Source: an uncultured Clostridia bacterium
Lineage (GTDB): Bacteria > Bacillota > Clostridia > TANB77 > CAG-508
Length of the DNA: 34,337 nucleotides
Assembly: GCA_944386665.1 (NCBI GenBank)
Contig: CALXBZ010000003.1
Location: forward strand, 1-34,337
Direction: 5' to 3'
In this document: piece by piece, positions 24,691 to 32,624 of the stretch
Position numbering within the stretch: the stretch's first letter is position 1
Layout: every line of letters begins with the position of its first letter
Notes under the pieces: generated by a model
Databases searched by the model: none
What the model saw: the letters and a program-made list of their open reading frames with translations, nothing else
What the model was told of the DNA's origin: nothing
Translations under genes and position numbers: made by a program

Positions 24691-25578
24691 TTATTCGAAT
24701 AATTTTTTAAATGTATTTTTGCCTACAATTCCGTCAGAAGTTAAACCATTATCATTTTGGAATTGTCTTACTATTATTAATGTCTTATTTTCGAATTTCT
24801 TATCCATGTTTATATTGTAACCTTTTATAAATAATGCCATTTGAATAAGCATTGTTATATTTCCACTGGCACCTTGACGTACATTTATACAAGCATTATA
24901 AGTTGCATTTCCAAATATTCCATCTTCAGCTAATCCTCTGTTAAATTGTATATTTAATTCTTTTTGGAATCCTTTAACTAAAGCTTTATGAGTTTTTGGG
25001 CCATATATATTGTCTAATGACAATCCTGTGTTATAGTGTTCATTTAACCATTGCTGTATATCATAAATACAATTTACTAATCCATCATTAAAAATGTCTT
25101 TATTTACATTTTCATCTGTATTTGTTGTATTTTCTCCATTGTTTGTTTCAATATTAACTATTTTATCAAAAGGAAATTTATCTCCTGGACAACTTGTTGC
25201 ATTTTCATCTCTATGAGCATGAACTGTAGTTATATTATATTTATTTTTTATATATGCAACCAATTCTTTTCCTGCTAGTTTTTGTGCTTCTGGCATATCT
25301 TCTTGCATATATCTTCCTTCAAAGCATATTCCTATCGAATTATAGTTGCTTCCATATGCATGAGCCCCTACTTTGTCTTCTGGTCTTAATCTGTAAATAG
25401 AACCATCTTTTCTTACTAAAAAATGGTAACCTGCACCTGACCACCCCTTGTTTAAATGCCATCTATGGATATCTTCCGCAGAACATGAGCTTGCATCTGC
25501 ATGATGTAATATTATTATTTCTGTTTTATTTCTTGTATCCATTGCTTTAAAATTTAAATTACTTTCTATAATTTCCAT
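24691..25578 (-). CDS. N-acetylmuramoyl-L-alanine amidase (endolysin-like) with two peptidoglycan-binding domains
   Basis: 295 aa, no signal peptide. An Amidase_2/PGRP-type domain fills residues about 15-140: IIILHHAD (zinc His25 or His26), GYHFLVRKDGSIYRLRP, GAHAYGSNYNSIGICFEG, and AHRDENATSCPGD with His122 and Cys130 as further zinc ligands. It cleaves the bond between N-acetylmuramic acid and L-Ala. Two PG_binding_1 repeats follow (about 165-232 and 235-295, with IYGPKTHKALVKGFQ and SDGIVGKNTFKKLF). Lack of an export signal and the holin gene 12 bases upstream point to phage-style release. AGGAGG precedes the ATG. It may be prophage-derived and now used by the host. Confidence 0.9.
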   Translation of the reverse strand: MEIIESNLNFKAMDTRNKTEIIILHHADASSCSAEDIHRWHLNKGWSGAGYHFLVRKDGSIYRLRPEDKVGAHAYGSNYNSIGICFEGRYMQEDMPEAQKLAGKELVAYIKNKYNITTVHAHRDENATSCPGDKFPFDKIVNIETNNGENTTNTDENVNKDIFNDGLVNCIYDIQQWLNEHYNTGLSLDNIYGPKTHKALVKGFQKELNIQFNRGLAEDGIFGNATYNACINVRQGASGNITMLIQMALFIKGYNINMDKKFENKTLIIVRQFQNDNGLTSDGIVGKNTFKKLFE

Positions 25579-25590
25579 AACAATTCCTCC

Positions 25591-25893
25591 TTATTCTGAC
25601 TTTTTAGTTTGTTTAATAATTTGATTAGCATAAACAGATAATCCTGCTACTAATATTCCTTGTACTATTGATGTAAATATTGCCATTAAAATTGATTGAT
25701 AGCCATTAAAAGCACTTGTTGCAACTACATATATTGCTGATATTAAAACCCCTACTATTCCTAATATTATTGGAATATATTTATCATTTATTTTCTCTGT
25801 TTTCTTCATTCCCATTCCAACAAAATATAGTACTATTGATACAACTAGTAATTCTGGCTTAATATAATTTTGTATAATTTGAGTTATGTCCAT
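25591..25893 (-). CDS. Phage holin, Hol44/holin superfamily V type
   Basis: 100 aa with three hydrophobic stretches: LLVVSIVLYFVGMGMK (about 15-30), YIPIILGIVGVLISAIYVVA (about 39-58) and LMAIFTSIVQGILVAGLSVYA (about 69-90), and a charged tail KQTKKSE. The pattern 'elllv..vLyf.G...K.t..i.dkyIPiil...g' is that of the Phage_holin_5_2 group. Holins make membrane holes that let endolysin reach the wall. AAAGGAG precedes the ATG. It is directly upstream of the amidase. No other phage gene (terminase, capsid, tail) is in the window. Confidence 0.82.
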   Translation of the reverse strand: MDITQIIQNYIKPELLVVSIVLYFVGMGMKKTEKINDKYIPIILGIVGVLISAIYVVATSAFNGYQSILMAIFTSIVQGILVAGLSVYANQIIKQTKKSE

Positions 25894-28268: not shown

Positions 28269-28464
28269 TTTTTTTTACAATTTTTTCACAAAATTCTTTA
28301 CTATTTTCTACAATTTGCAGTAATAACTTTATAAGTGTACAATAAGGCTTATTTTTTATTTGCAGAGCTACAATTTTTAGTTTACAAGAACATATATCTA
28401 GGTTATGAAATAAACACTTAGCAAAAACTAATGTTTTTCAAATAAATTAAACTGCAAATTTAAA

Positions 28465-31086
28465 TTAATATCCTGTCCTTGGTAGCTTTTTGATTTTTTC
28501 AATATTATATACTATTGACGTAGTTTTATCTTCATCCGCGACTCTATATTCATGATTAAATCCTTCTAATATTGTATGATTTTCTATTATTGTATCATTT
28601 TTCAATGAATCATTTGCTTTCATGTATATATGTGGCTTTTCAATGTTTTTAAATCCAATATTCACCTTTCCAAATTTTACTTTTATTTCTATTATTTTTT
28701 CATCTTTTTCTAGGTGTATATTTGTTAGGTCTATATAATTATTCTGTTTACTATTTAAGTCTTTCTTCAATACTAAGTAATCTTCTTTTTGGTTTGTTTT
28801 GTAATATACACTATAATTAATATCTTGGTTAAAAGTTCCTGTCGAAATTTTAGTAATTTTTGCATAATCACTTGGCAATATATCATACCATGTAAATTCT
28901 GTTAATGCAGTATTTCCTGTATTTGATATTTCAAATTCGTAATCTATTTCCTCGTTTGATTTTACTACATTTTTACTTCTCTTTAATATTTCTAAGTTAG
29001 GATCTTCTGGTTTATTAGTTATTTCTAATTCTTCTATTTGATTATTTTTTAATATCTCTACATCATATTTTTTATTATCTAATATATACCACTTTCCAGT
29101 TTCAATTTCTTCCACTGTATATTTTCCTTTTTCTAATTCTTTACTTTCTGCTATCCCATTTTTGTTTGTTATTACTTGTTCTACCAATTTATTGTTTGAA
29201 TCATATATATTAAATTTTGCACCTTCTATTGGGCTTCCTGCTTCTACATTTAAGATTTTATTTTTTTCTTCACTTGTTTTAATTATTTTTATCTTTCCTT
29301 TTATTTTTTCGTTTTCTACTATCTTTTCGCTGATTACACTGTCATCTATATGTACTTCTATTATTTTATCATTTAATATGTATTTTGAATCTGTTTTTAC
29401 TTCTTGTATATAGTATTTACCTACAGGAAGTTTTGAGGATATTGCTTCTCCATTTTCATCTGTTACTAACGTTTCTAATTTTTCATTGTTTTCATTCAAT
29501 AAATTAAATTCTACTCCTTGTAATTTAATTTCATGATTTTCTTTATCAACTTTTATTACCTTAATTTGTCCTTTTTTCCTTACGTTTTCGATTGTTAATG
29601 TGGCTGTTTCTTTCCAGGTTATCTTGACCTTTTGTTCTGCTCCAATTTTATATTCTTCTTTGGTTTTCACTTCTTTTAGTGTATACTCGCCTATGTTTAA
29701 ATTTTCAATTTCCGCTTCACCCTTTTCATCAGTTACTAAATGTGCAACAACTTCTCCATTTTGATTTATTAAGTCAAATTCTACTCCTTCTAGCCTATGA
29801 CTGTTATCATCTTTGTCAACCTTTACGATTTCTAGGCCTCCTTTTTTGTGATTATTGTATATTGTTATTTCTTTGTTTTGATTATACTCTAGTTCTAAAT
29901 TAATTTCTGAAGTATCCAGCTCATATTCTTCTAATGTTGCTTTTTCTATTAATTTTATTTTCCCTTGCCTTAAATTTGTTATATTTATTTCTCCATTTTT
30001 ATCTGTAGTAAATTCTCCAATTACTTGGTTTGTGTCTGTATACTTTGCACTAAATGTAACTCCTTCTATTGGTTGCTTATTTTCTTTGTCTCTTTTTATC
30101 ACTCTTAAAGATGATTTATATGCATTTATATTCAATTTAGAATTTGTAGATATATTTTCTTCTATATCTGCATAAGTTATGTAGTCCTGATATTCGTCTG
30201 AATAAGCATTTGCGTAAAATACAGGATATGATTTTATTTTTATGTCTAATACATCTATTGTACCTTCTATGTTTCTTTTAATTTCTTTGATTGGTATTGC
30301 TATATTAAATGCTATATTAGTCATTTGAGTAGTCTCTTGATTTAAGTTGTTCAGTATTTTGGTTCCATTTGGAAAATTCTTTATTGATACTTTATAGTTG
30401 TCAATTTCTCTATTTCCTATAACAGTATAATTCTGGATTAGATACTTAACTCCATTTATAATTTTTTCTTGTTCTGTGCCATCTTTCTTAATATTTGCGG
30501 TAGGTATTGCATATTTTTCTTTTCCATTAACTCCATAGTCATATAATTGTTGTGCAACTTCTAAAACTTTTGCACCTCTTCTTTGTACCTCTTCTAGCGA
30601 AACATCTTGACCTATTCCCACTCTATTTGGTACTTCATATTTAGTTTTTGGAGTAGTCCCATCTGCTAAACAATGTACTGCTGTTTTTGTTGCATAGTAT
30701 AAATCATCATCACATTCCATGTTCCAAGAAGTATATGATGACCCCATATATCCTTTATATAGTACTCTCCATAATCGTTCATCATTTAAAAGTTTTAAAG
30801 TAACATCATATTCGTCACCTGCGCCTGTTCCTACGCCTGCTTTTTCAGGTTCCACACAAAAAGCAGGTTGTTTTTTTCCTGTTTCCGGATCTTTATACAC
30901 TATATAAAATACTTCTTTCAAAACGTCTTTTCCTTGCATTTTTAATACCGCTATGCATTCATGATCTTTCTCTATTTTTATAACTTGGTTATCATTAAAG
31001 TTAAACGCAAATACAGGCATTATTTTGGATATTATAACTATTAATAATATACAGAATGTTGTTATTTTTTTTAATCTAAAATTCAT
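28465..31086 (-). CDS. Cna-B (SpaA-type) adhesin ending in LPRTGY
   Basis: 873 aa. Signal peptide 1-28 (FCILLIVIISKIMPVFA). The N-terminal part resembles a thioester domain: AFCVEP with Cys77, but the TQxA(I/V)W partner reads TKTAVH (133-138), so the usual Gln is Lys134. Four Cna-B/SpaA domains start near residues 324, 413, 504 and 595, each with a Lys-bearing first strand (VIKRD, IVKVD, VIKVD, IIKTS) and a late Glu (LIEKAT, LKEVKT, IQEVKT, VEEIET) suited to isopeptide bonds. A DUF11-like domain follows (694-860). The last residues are KKLPRTGY then TAA: a sortase motif without the following membrane segment and basic tail. It lies 38 bases after the sortase gene. Confidence 0.88.
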   Translation of the reverse strand: MNFRLKKITTFCILLIVIISKIMPVFAFNFNDNQVIKIEKDHECIAVLKMQGKDVLKEVFYIVYKDPETGKKQPAFCVEPEKAGVGTGAGDEYDVTLKLLNDERLWRVLYKGYMGSSYTSWNMECDDDLYYATKTAVHCLADGTTPKTKYEVPNRVGIGQDVSLEEVQRRGAKVLEVAQQLYDYGVNGKEKYAIPTANIKKDGTEQEKIINGVKYLIQNYTVIGNREIDNYKVSIKNFPNGTKILNNLNQETTQMTNIAFNIAIPIKEIKRNIEGTIDVLDIKIKSYPVFYANAYSDEYQDYITYADIEENISTNSKLNINAYKSSLRVIKRDKENKQPIEGVTFSAKYTDTNQVIGEFTTDKNGEINITNLRQGKIKLIEKATLEEYELDTSEINLELEYNQNKEITIYNNHKKGGLEIVKVDKDDNSHRLEGVEFDLINQNGEVVAHLVTDEKGEAEIENLNIGEYTLKEVKTKEEYKIGAEQKVKITWKETATLTIENVRKKGQIKVIKVDKENHEIKLQGVEFNLLNENNEKLETLVTDENGEAISSKLPVGKYYIQEVKTDSKYILNDKIIEVHIDDSVISEKIVENEKIKGKIKIIKTSEEKNKILNVEAGSPIEGAKFNIYDSNNKLVEQVITNKNGIAESKELEKGKYTVEEIETGKWYILDNKKYDVEILKNNQIEELEITNKPEDPNLEILKRSKNVVKSNEEIDYEFEISNTGNTALTEFTWYDILPSDYAKITKISTGTFNQDINYSVYYKTNQKEDYLVLKKDLNSKQNNYIDLTNIHLEKDEKIIEIKVKFGKVNIGFKNIEKPHIYMKANDSLKNDTIIENHTILEGFNHEYRVADEDKTTSIVYNIEKIKKLPRTGY

Positions 31087-31124
31087 AAAATCTCCTTTCG
31101 ATTTATCTTAATTTTTATTTTCGT

Positions 31125-31709
31125 CTATGTTTCTTGTTCTATAGCTTGTACGCACATTCTTTGATTTACTTTATTCCTTATACATGTAATTAATGTTAAT
31201 TTATTTTCTTTAGTGTTCTTTAACATGCTCCAGTCAGTTTCCAATATTTCTTTTTTATTAGTTACAATATATTTTTTGGTGCCATATTTTGTTTGATATA
31301 TTATTTCATCTCCATTATCTAATTCGTTAATTCTCGCAAAGTAGGAATATTTATTTCCTCTATTATGAGCTGCTAGTCCTACATTTCCATCAAACTTAGA
31401 TGTTTCTTCAATATGCCCTATATATTCTTCTAATATTTCACTTGAACATCCTTCTTTTACTTCTCCATTAAGGCTAATTTTATTTATAATTAATTTTCCT
31501 AATATCTCATCTTGTTGCGTATTTTCATCTTGTTCTTTTTCATTTATAGTTTGTGTGTTTTCAAAGCTTTCATCTTGTATCATTTGATTCTCATCAACTA
31601 TTTGACCATTTTCTTCTTGTTCTAATATCTTTTTATCGTATATAAATAATGCACTTAAAGCACCAGCTAATATTGCCATGATTAATAAAACAAATAATGT
31701 TTTTTTCAT
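31125..31709 (-). CDS. Sortase, class D-like
   Basis: 194 aa. N-terminal membrane segment (about 5-23, LFVLLIMAILAGALSALFI), a low-complexity Glu/Asn/Gln linker (30-68), then the catalytic domain from IGKLIINKISL-like strand onward. Active site: His115 in GLAAHNRG, Cys176 in TLITCI and Arg184 (NQRMCVQAIE), the order and spacing of sortases. Sortases cut LPXTG between Thr and Gly and join the product to peptidoglycan or another pilin. The adhesin 38 bases downstream carries LPRTG and is the likely substrate. A consensus promoter, a palindrome at the start site and a long leader precede it. AGGAAGAGG lies before the ATG. Confidence 0.9.
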   Translation of the reverse strand: MKKTLFVLLIMAILAGALSALFIYDKKILEQEENGQIVDENQMIQDESFENTQTINEKEQDENTQQDEILGKLIINKISLNGEVKEGCSSEILEEYIGHIEETSKFDGNVGLAAHNRGNKYSYFARINELDNGDEIIYQTKYGTKKYIVTNKKEILETDWSMLKNTKENKLTLITCIRNKVNQRMCVQAIEQET

Positions 31710-31851: not shown

Positions 31852-31879
31852 ATTATATAACTTTTAGTTATTATGTCAA
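31852..31879 (-). promoter_or_regulatory. Consensus sigma-A promoter for the sortase-adhesin operon
   Basis: Minus strand TTGACA (31879-31874), 16-base spacer, TATAAT (31857-31852). Both hexamers are perfect consensus, one of the strongest promoters in the window. The leader would be about 130 bases. Confidence 0.85.
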
Positions 31880-31945: not shown

Positions 31946-31996
31946 TAATTCATAATTTTTTTAGAATTTATATTAGGCATAACTAAAAAATACACA

Positions 31997-32024
31997 AAAG
32001 AAGAACTTATAAAAGTTCTTCTTT
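31997..32024 (-). terminator. Terminator of the hibernation factor gene
   Basis: AAAGAAGAACTT and AAGTTCTTCTTT form a perfect 12-base stem with a 4-base loop, ending in T residues on the minus strand. It starts 15 bases after the hpf stop. Confidence 0.85.
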
Positions 32025-32038
32025 CTACTAATATTTTA

Positions 32039-32572
32039 TTATTCCTCTGGTTCTATTAAACCATAATTTTTATTGTCTTTTAATCTATATATTACATTTA
32101 CTTTTCCTGTTTCAATATTTACGAATGCTAAAAATTTATTTTGTGGTTGATCTTCTAATAATAGTTTTGCATCTTCTGCTCCCATAGGTTTTATGCTATA
32201 GTACATTGTTTTAAGAATTTCATTTTCAACTTCATGCTCATCTGCTCTATTAGTTTCTTTTATTCTAATAGATTCTGTCATGTTTTGCTTATCTTTTTTT
32301 GTTTTCATCTTTCTTATTTGTCCTTCTAATATGTCTATATTTTTATCTATAGAAGCATATAGATCATGACTAGCTGTTACTGCTCTAAAAGAATCTCCGC
32401 TTACTGATATTTGCATTTCTGCAACTTGGTCTTCTCTTTCTTTCTTTATAGTTACAAATAAGTCTATATCTTCTGTATCAAAATATTTTTTTAATCTTTC
32501 TGCTTTAGTATCAATATAATTTTTAATTGCATCTGTTGCCTTTAGTTCTTTTCCTGTTATTTTTATGTTCAT
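32039..32572 (-). CDS. hpf: Ribosome hibernation promoting factor, long form
   Basis: 177 aa from ATG 32572 (MNIKITGKELKATDAIKNYI), chosen for its AAAGGAG RBS over an ATG six codons earlier. The N-terminal HPF/RaiA domain (1-100) binds the 30S decoding region in resting cells. The C-terminal domain (about 120-177, MKPMGAEDAKLLLEDQPQNKFLAFVNIETGKVNVIYRL) allows 70S dimers to form, the mark of long HPF. It has its own promoter and terminator, as expected for a gene induced in stationary phase or under stress. Confidence 0.94.
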   Translation of the reverse strand: MNIKITGKELKATDAIKNYIDTKAERLKKYFDTEDIDLFVTIKKEREDQVAEMQISVSGDSFRAVTASHDLYASIDKNIDILEGQIRKMKTKKDKQNMTESIRIKETNRADEHEVENEILKTMYYSIKPMGAEDAKLLLEDQPQNKFLAFVNIETGKVNVIYRLKDNKNYGLIEPEE

Positions 32573-32624
32573 AAAAATCGCTCCTTTCAATTTATCTAAA
32601 TGTACTTTTGCTATTTGCTAATTC

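Follow-up and report, generated by a model that had tools for sequence, protein, structure and literature searches.

The window, the whole stretch of DNA that was analysed, comprises 34,337 nucleotides of an uncultured Clostridia bacterium (assembly GCA_944386665.1, contig CALXBZ010000003.1, positions 1 to 34,337, forward strand). Its minus strand carries a gene for a thioester adhesin that ends in KKLPRTGY and, separated from it by 39 nt on the same strand, an upstream gene for a sortase with a second cysteine two residues past the catalytic arginine (C186, hence 'RxC'). The order of these bacteria is presumably TANB77 and the family CAG-508 (GTDB names). The dedicated RxC sortase probably cleaves a minimal sorting signal that has no membrane segment, and fixes the adhesin to the cell wall. 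The features of the two genes are as follows.

28465..31086, minus strand: adhesin gene, 873 aa, with signal peptide, thioester domain (TED), SpaA/CnaB-like domains, a DUF11/DUF7507-like domain and the LPRTGY end
28468..28485, minus strand: LPRTGY, the putative minimal sorting signal, directly followed by the stop TAA at 28465-28467; conserved in relatives
28468..28509, minus strand: C-terminal coil, residues 860-873, where the block means of pLDDT (predicted local distance difference test) drop to 61 and then 46
29014..30114, minus strand: SpaA/CnaB-like stalk domains, about residues 325-691 (profile matches, alignment, model)
30538..30867, minus strand: thioester domain PF08341, residues 74-183 (profile match)
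31003..31086, minus strand: Sec signal peptide, about residues 1-28, ...IMPVFA (sequence; helix 2-22 in the model)
31092..31098, minus strand: Shine-Dalgarno sequence AAAGGAG ahead of the adhesin ATG (sequence)
31125..31709, minus strand: RxC sortase gene, 194 aa, with membrane helix, linker and sortase barrel
31152..31184, minus strand: codons C176 to C186 with the catalytic Cys, the Arg and the second Cys, TLITC...RMC (alignments)

The C-terminus of the adhesin reads IEKIKKLPRTGY, then TAA. The motif LPRTG occupies residues 868-872 of 873, and the last beta strand of the structural model is formed by residues 847-859. Like the substrates of the canonical LPXTG pathway, the protein is a Sec-secreted multidomain surface protein with LPxTG near its C-terminus, and it is accompanied by a sortase with His, Cys and Arg. 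It differs in two of the three features of the canonical signal. The motif is present, but the hydrophobic membrane-spanning segment is absent, since one residue is followed by TAA with no hidden frame behind it, and the positively charged tail is absent, since nothing follows Y873. These observations agree with the initial annotation, which had noted the stop right after LPRTGY, the lack of a hydrophobic helix in any downstream frame (found here for the in-frame reading and both shifted frames) and the sortase gene next door, whose catalytic triad is intact.

The short end is recurrent among the relatives. A homologue of the adhesin is present in 42 of 56 related genomes. Among 30 homologue loci (L006-L035, the window's included), 22 end in LP.TG plus one residue, two have a classical tail (L027, L029) and six gave no tail by the LP.TG search. 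LP.TG or LPx[A/S]G followed by one residue and a stop was found in 46 proteins from 39 of the 56 genomes and 28 of 41 genera; with Thr motifs only, the count is 35 genomes and 24 genera, the motif being LPx[A/S]G in L149, L150, L156 and L174 (one genome and one genus each). Recurrence of LPxTG[FYI]-stop beside this class of sortase had been proposed as a check, and the 39 genomes answer it. The opposite outcome, close relatives with a membrane segment after LPRTG, did not appear, as the homologues of all five same-genus genomes searched end in LP[RK]TG[FY]-stop. A search for the coding pattern K-LP-[K/R]-TG-x-stop gave 26 sites, spread over 22 of the 56 genomes, and none for its reversed control. 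The looser LPxTGx-stop pattern matches twice in the window's own genome, where only the window's match is a real protein end; the second match reads TGG at the position of the stop. Among named metagenome-assembled genome loci, taken as the best 80 of 418 relatives found with the sortase profile, the short tail was seen in 60 by script and in L240 and L254 by their reading frames (62 together); one has a long tail (L278) and 17 have no readable tail. A second long-tail flag, at L296, was raised by a membrane protein that is unrelated and adjoins a short-tail locus. The records are named as uncultured Clostridia and similar, with 'Lapin' (read as rabbit), sheep jejunum and wild mice as stated sources. 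In all, there are 95 distinct short-tail proteins, which fall into 79 clusters at 70% identity and into 36 at 50%.

The length of the tail is exact. Among 1,516 distinct open reading frames (ORFs) of at least 150 codons from all collected loci, a sample enriched by fetching loci through their sortase or adhesin, 97 carry LP.[TSA]G with exactly one residue behind it, and none carries it with 0 or 2-12 residues behind it; three permuted motifs used as control gave no matches. If extra residues were tolerated the stop positions would drift, and the absence of drift suggests that the C-terminal end itself is read. In the 95 short-tail proteins the last residue is M in 39, F in 21, Y in 16, C in 7, K in 4, I in 3, N in 2, and V, W and L in one each. 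It is hydrophobic or Cys in 89 of the 95, against 34% in the background, and Met alone accounts for 41%, against 1.1%. Position X of the motif is mostly K or R, with V or I in 26 of the 95. In 100 adhesin-sortase pairs it varies with the residue after the catalytic Arg of the partner: Leu at that position goes with K/R in 46 and V/I in 1, and Arg with K/R in 22 and V/I in 25. This covariation would fit direct recognition, although it is confounded by descent.

The short tail is tied to one group of sortases. A short-tail adhesin lies beside 81 of 105 RxC sortases, a classical one beside 2 and none beside 22, whereas 41 non-RxC sortases have no short-tail neighbour, 12 long-tail neighbours (two of which, at L175 and L216, face the opposite direction) and 29 without either; the association gives a Fisher probability of 1.7e-13, not corrected for relatedness. 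The gap between sortase and adhesin is at most 120 nt in 79 of 103 cases, a locus present in both sets being counted twice. Seen from the adhesins, 41 of the 46 short-tail proteins in related genomes have an RxC sortase on the same strand within 3 kb. Of the five exceptions, L144 and L163 have a sortase or a fragment that the ORF filter missed, L167 has a split sortase, and the genomes of L175 and L176 encode an RxC sortase at another place (L145, L162). Catalytic His and Cys are both missing from the paired sortase in two loci (ANN or GNN for AHN; TLITG for TLITC), where the adjoining adhesins end in LPKAGI and LPEAGI.

L156:7553-8002 (G023): pseudosortase beside an LPxAG adhesin
L174:2522-3092 (G007): pseudosortase beside an LPxAG adhesin, split over two frames

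Here the motif Thr was lost along with the decay of the enzyme, which provides a natural control in two cases that are perhaps related. The LPx[AS]G ends of L149 and L150 adjoin sortases that keep the Cys. Long-tail LPxTG proteins with membrane segment and basic tail also occur beside RxC sortases, at L161:4783-7086, at L172:5472-7766 and at L278; they fit LPxTG as the motif of this clade. The protein of L161 has TED and SpaA domains, that of L172 is without a Pfam match and adjoins a split sortase, and that of L278 has 1,085 aa and lies about 1 kb after the sortase.

The window's sortase consists of a membrane helix (residues 3-34), a low-confidence linker of 25 residues (37-61) and the barrel. 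The catalytic residues H115, C176 and R184 are intact and are invariant in the sortase alignment (A1). It matches PF04203 with 71.3 bits (cut-off 26.6), and no NCBIfam class model reached its cut-off, only the general sortase model did; the class D models scored 50.2 against 165 (NF033746) and 66.3 against 140 (NF058671). At E 0.01 the NCBIfam matches comprised class D, C, E and GN models and the general model, with no class B model. The best PDB sequence matches of the RxC profile are 4d70 (Clostridium perfringens, class D; 9.2e-23) and 2kw8 (Bacillus anthracis, which we take to be a class D sortase; 4.9e-22), and the best Foldseek matches are sortases of classes C and A. BLAST hits in relatives fall into two sets, with a gap from 1e-16 to 1e-12 in the genome search and from 6e-17 to 1e-9 in the protein search. 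The second Cys was found in 50 of 50 matches at E 1e-15 or better that reach the C-terminal end and in none of the 16 sortase ORFs matching at E 1e-15 to 1e-3, so the RxC feature exists independently of the motif search. For the pairing counts the label was set by that search, and the invariance of C186 in the corresponding alignments is partly by construction. In the motif-defined sets of 104 RxC and 34 other sortases, G98, H99, R117, Y138, W160, N169 and Q188 also separate the two, the others carrying Ile or Val at 186. R184 and C186 stand two residues apart on one strand (180-191), so the two side chains would be expected to point towards the active site. In a tree of 146 sortases, from which ORFs shorter than 140 aa and identical copies were omitted (and with them the long-tail RxC case L172), all 81 short-tail partners fall in a single clade (107 rows, support 100/88). 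The label and the clade do not coincide entirely: L203 is RxC and lies outside, and a long branch inside comprises three rows without RxC (L166_1033, L186, L201). The long-tail partners L161 and L278 (a starred pair) lie inside the clade at a depth that the tree leaves open, so loss and gain of the membrane segment cannot be polarised.

The remainder of the adhesin has the architecture of a surface protein. A Sec-like signal was recognised by a heuristic (simple hydropathy and an AxA-like pattern) in 85 of the 95 short-tail proteins, most of the other 10 being short or N-terminally broken as annotated by script. These signals look cleavable. N-terminal retention in the membrane was considered and set aside on that ground, and hydropathy showed no membrane-like stretch beyond residue 75 in any of the 95. 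The TED of the window's protein scores 26 bits (cut-off 22). In a Pfam scan at E 0.01 of 70 of the 95 adhesins, TED and SpaA domains were each found in 66; the LP..G end of the 70 aligned rows is by construction, as rows were picked for it. Of the 70, 61 retain Cys77 and 63 retain Gln300, its likely thioester partner. K331, E381 and N411, each kept in 64, likely form an isopeptide set, to judge from their conservation. The AlphaFold model, built from 18 sequences (mean pLDDT 87.4, predicted template modelling score 0.43), shows a chain of beta domains after the TED. The adhesin most likely makes one covalent bond to its target through the thioester and another to its own wall through the sortase.

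The proposed mechanism is the following. The adhesin would leave the cell by Sec and lose its signal peptide. Its flexible tail, LPxTG with one hydrophobic residue and a free C-terminus, would be a complete minimal signal, and the co-transcribed RxC sortase, itself tethered to the membrane, would take it directly, with no membrane-spanning segment to retain the adhesin. The cut would fall between Thr and Gly and release only a Gly-X dipeptide, and the adhesin would be passed to the cell wall with its TED pointing outward on the SpaA stalk. The sortase may read the terminal hydrophobic residue together with the carboxylate; the single residue beyond Gly means that the C-terminus is not formed by Gly. 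Retention would be replaced by co-expression, by a sortase tethered through the 25-residue linker and by recognition of the end. Capture of the adhesin by the sortase at the translocon, an earlier suggestion, is compatible with the data. A broader proposal, held only tentatively, is that RxC sortases form a distinct class of transpeptidases that read the C-terminus and recognise LPxTG, a hydrophobic residue and its carboxylate (LPxTG-Phi-COOH); end recognition would replace membrane retention, the substrate would need only to be secreted close by, and the second Cys might serve recognition or redox control.

In Staphylococcus aureus, removal of the hydrophobic part of the sorting signal leads to secretion. 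That the tail retains sortase substrates is also the textbook view quoted in the available text of PMC4974636. According to the same portion of that report (Liang 2016), AbpA of oral streptococci ends in LPKTS-AVK and is anchored by SrtB, with some of the protein lost to the medium, and deletion of its last three residues abolishes amylase binding. SrtB is described there as a hybrid with likeness to SrtA and SrtC, and abpA without srtB is described in Gemella in the accessible part of PMC5399409. A soluble LPETG-amide peptide is built into the S. aureus wall by SrtA, as stated in the available text of PMC3929722, and a membrane segment is therefore not needed for the chemistry. AbpA/SrtB resembles the window's system, as far as the accessible text describes it, in having a secreted adhesin, a very short C-terminal signal with neither membrane segment nor charged tail, and a paired gene for a dedicated sortase. 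It differs in the motif and tail (LPKTS plus three residues, against LPxTG plus one), in the sortase, which is encoded downstream and named SrtB, whereas the window's lies upstream and is unclassified and class D-like, and in the adhesin, as AbpA is an unrelated amylase-binding protein described in oral streptococci. The two sortases may differ in type, to judge from the class models that the window's sortase matches. The LPxTGX-stop system would work like AbpA/SrtB but is not filed as a member of it, given its different motif, tail length and adhesin and the other class models that its sortase matches. With class D sortases (4d70, 2kw8) the RxC sortase shares the barrel and its best PDB matches, but it falls below every NCBIfam class cut-off. 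The adhesins BaTIE and TIEpLS20 share the N-terminal TED followed by a CnaB/SpaA stalk; in the parts of PMC4450167 and PMC8092201 that were available, BaTIE has LPXTG with a membrane segment, where the window's adhesin has the motif without it, and TIEpLS20, unlike the window's adhesin, is given neither a sorting signal nor a plasmid-borne sortase. TIEpLS20 is encoded on a conjugative plasmid (PMC8092201, available text), and some short-tail relatives lie beside conjugation genes. No account of LPxTGX-stop proteins or of the RxC clade was found in the literature, within a coverage short of most subscription papers.

Of the other explanations, the one that survives best, though it is unlikely, is that the adhesin is a soluble donor joined to another protein, such as a pilin or itself in multimers, and not to peptidoglycan. 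AbpA appears as a ladder made by its own sortase in the available text of PMC4974636, and the Foldseek and HMMER matches include many class C pilus sortases. Yet the two-gene locus has no pilin and a YPK-type motif occurs in only 1 of the 95 adhesins, so that the initial annotation's idea of a donor for another pilin finds little support; moreover, the window's genome has a single substrate of the short-tail kind, and the best PDB sequence matches are class D-like (2kw8 presumably so). Self-linking of the adhesin may still occur through an unrecognised Lys. That the sortase merely hydrolyses the tail, releasing or maturing a secreted adhesin, is improbable. The lack of a retention segment and the partial release of AbpA (PMC4974636, available part) would agree with it, but LPxTG is hardly needed to trim two residues off a protein that is already soluble, TED stalk proteins mostly bear LPXTG wall-anchoring motifs (PMC4450167, accessible text), and LPxTG with a membrane segment is kept beside the sortases of L161, L172 and L278. 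Truncation or decay of an ordinary substrate, by loss of the tail, frameshift or stop read-through, is scarcely credible and in our judgement refuted for the group: decay does occur at L135/L260, with an altered motif and an apparent frameshift, but the same end is found in 28 genera with an exact one-residue spacing and a hydrophobic last residue. The test covered 93 short-tail relatives and 852 control ORF ends, and a hydrophobic stretch past the stop (in-frame, +1 or -1) was seen in 7 of 279 readings of the relatives (the window's protein not among them) and more commonly, in 216 of 2,556, past control ORFs of the same loci; this bears out the earlier remark that a simple frameshift is no explanation. 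Recoding of the stop was likewise rejected, the stops of the 95 distinct proteins being ordinary (TAA 77, TAG 17, TGA 1). The third earlier suggestion, a short-signal variant, is strongly supported: the ending recurs, its length is exact and it goes with a single sortase clade.

Several points weigh against anchoring through a minimal signal. Cleavage, acceptor and location are what we infer for every member of the group, and anchoring may be partial, by analogy with the textbook role of the tail in retention and the leakage of AbpA. The 22 RxC sortases counted above have no LPxTG neighbour in reach; the 17 named loci without a readable tail comprise contig ends, broken frames or sortases with no adjoining adhesin; and the ORF census drew on the enriched sample. 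Beyond the order the system was not recovered by the following searches. A search of 398 genomes of the phylum at E 1e-15 (usually 7 candidates scored per genome) gave, among the 30 loci obtained, two RxC-like sortases in other classes, L305 (G751, by script) and L306 (G637, by eye), both with a signal-peptide-like N-terminus. In neither case did the flank, about 1.5 kb, contain an LPxTGX end, which means that the system cannot be diagnosed from RxC by itself. Two sortase relatives lie on viral contigs, L303 without RxC and L302 with it; the 1,477-codon frame that follows L302 runs off the contig, its end is unreadable and no short tail is demonstrable. In 391 genomes of the class the strict K-LP-[K/R]-TG-x-stop pattern was found in 9, of which 5 are within the order, against 13 hits of the reversed control; the pattern requires K before and K/R inside the motif and would miss the LPVTG and LPITG forms (26 of the 95 known cases). 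The four genomes outside the order were rejected, one because its match lacks a stop, and three because the frames that end there have 8, 20 and 77 codons and were judged spurious.

The surroundings of the two genes include the following features.

31852..31879, minus strand: sigma-70-like promoter upstream of the sortase, TTGACA-16-TATAAT, with 12 of 12 consensus matches (pattern match only)
31996..32025, minus strand: terminator-like hairpin past the upstream gene (one found, 0.5 expected)
32039-32590: hpf-like gene (named by eye) upstream of the sortase, followed by the hairpin

The promoter scan found 35 such sites against 28.6 expected. Since the sortase is preceded by this promoter-like site and the upstream gene is followed by the hairpin, the pair of sortase and adhesin resembles a two-gene operon. 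The same-genus loci L124 and L126 also have hpf-like gene, sortase and adhesin in this order. Adjoining amidase-like and holin-like genes (24691-25893, named by eye) are absent from the corresponding place in both and are a possible phage lysis remnant. Another sortase of the window's genome, at G000:C17:16843-17205 (L004, L180), has an internal TAA; the small LPQTG protein next to it bears a normal membrane tail. In nine loci (L129, L132, L137, L139, L141, L148, L158, also L170 and L171) sortase and adhesin are separated by a further protein, of about 235-313 aa, whose N-terminus has a hydrophobic stretch; genes for a TraG-like ATPase and an M23 peptidase lie near L129 and an ArdC-type gene near L158. 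Some of these loci may sit on conjugative elements, and their adhesins may serve mating-pair formation as TIEpLS20 does in the available text of PMC8092201. RxC sortases without an adjoining adhesin, at L136/L293 (G025), L145 (G008), L162 (G024), L258, L275 and L285, have a recurrent gene of about 570-620 aa within about 5 kb. In G008, G024 and G025 a short-tail protein end occurs elsewhere in the genome.

The usual description of LPXTG proteins requires a three-part sorting signal, and by it a protein such as the window's adhesin would pass as secreted or truncated. Many genera of one order of gut bacteria nevertheless keep a signal that consists of the motif and one residue, suggesting that wall anchoring does not need the textbook long tail. 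The presence of both kinds of tail beside the same sortase clade makes it possible to ask directly what purpose the membrane segment serves. If these sortases act on soluble ends, as they may, they could be of use in protein ligation, and the finding draws attention to surface adhesins that have been overlooked in gut commensals and on their conjugative elements.

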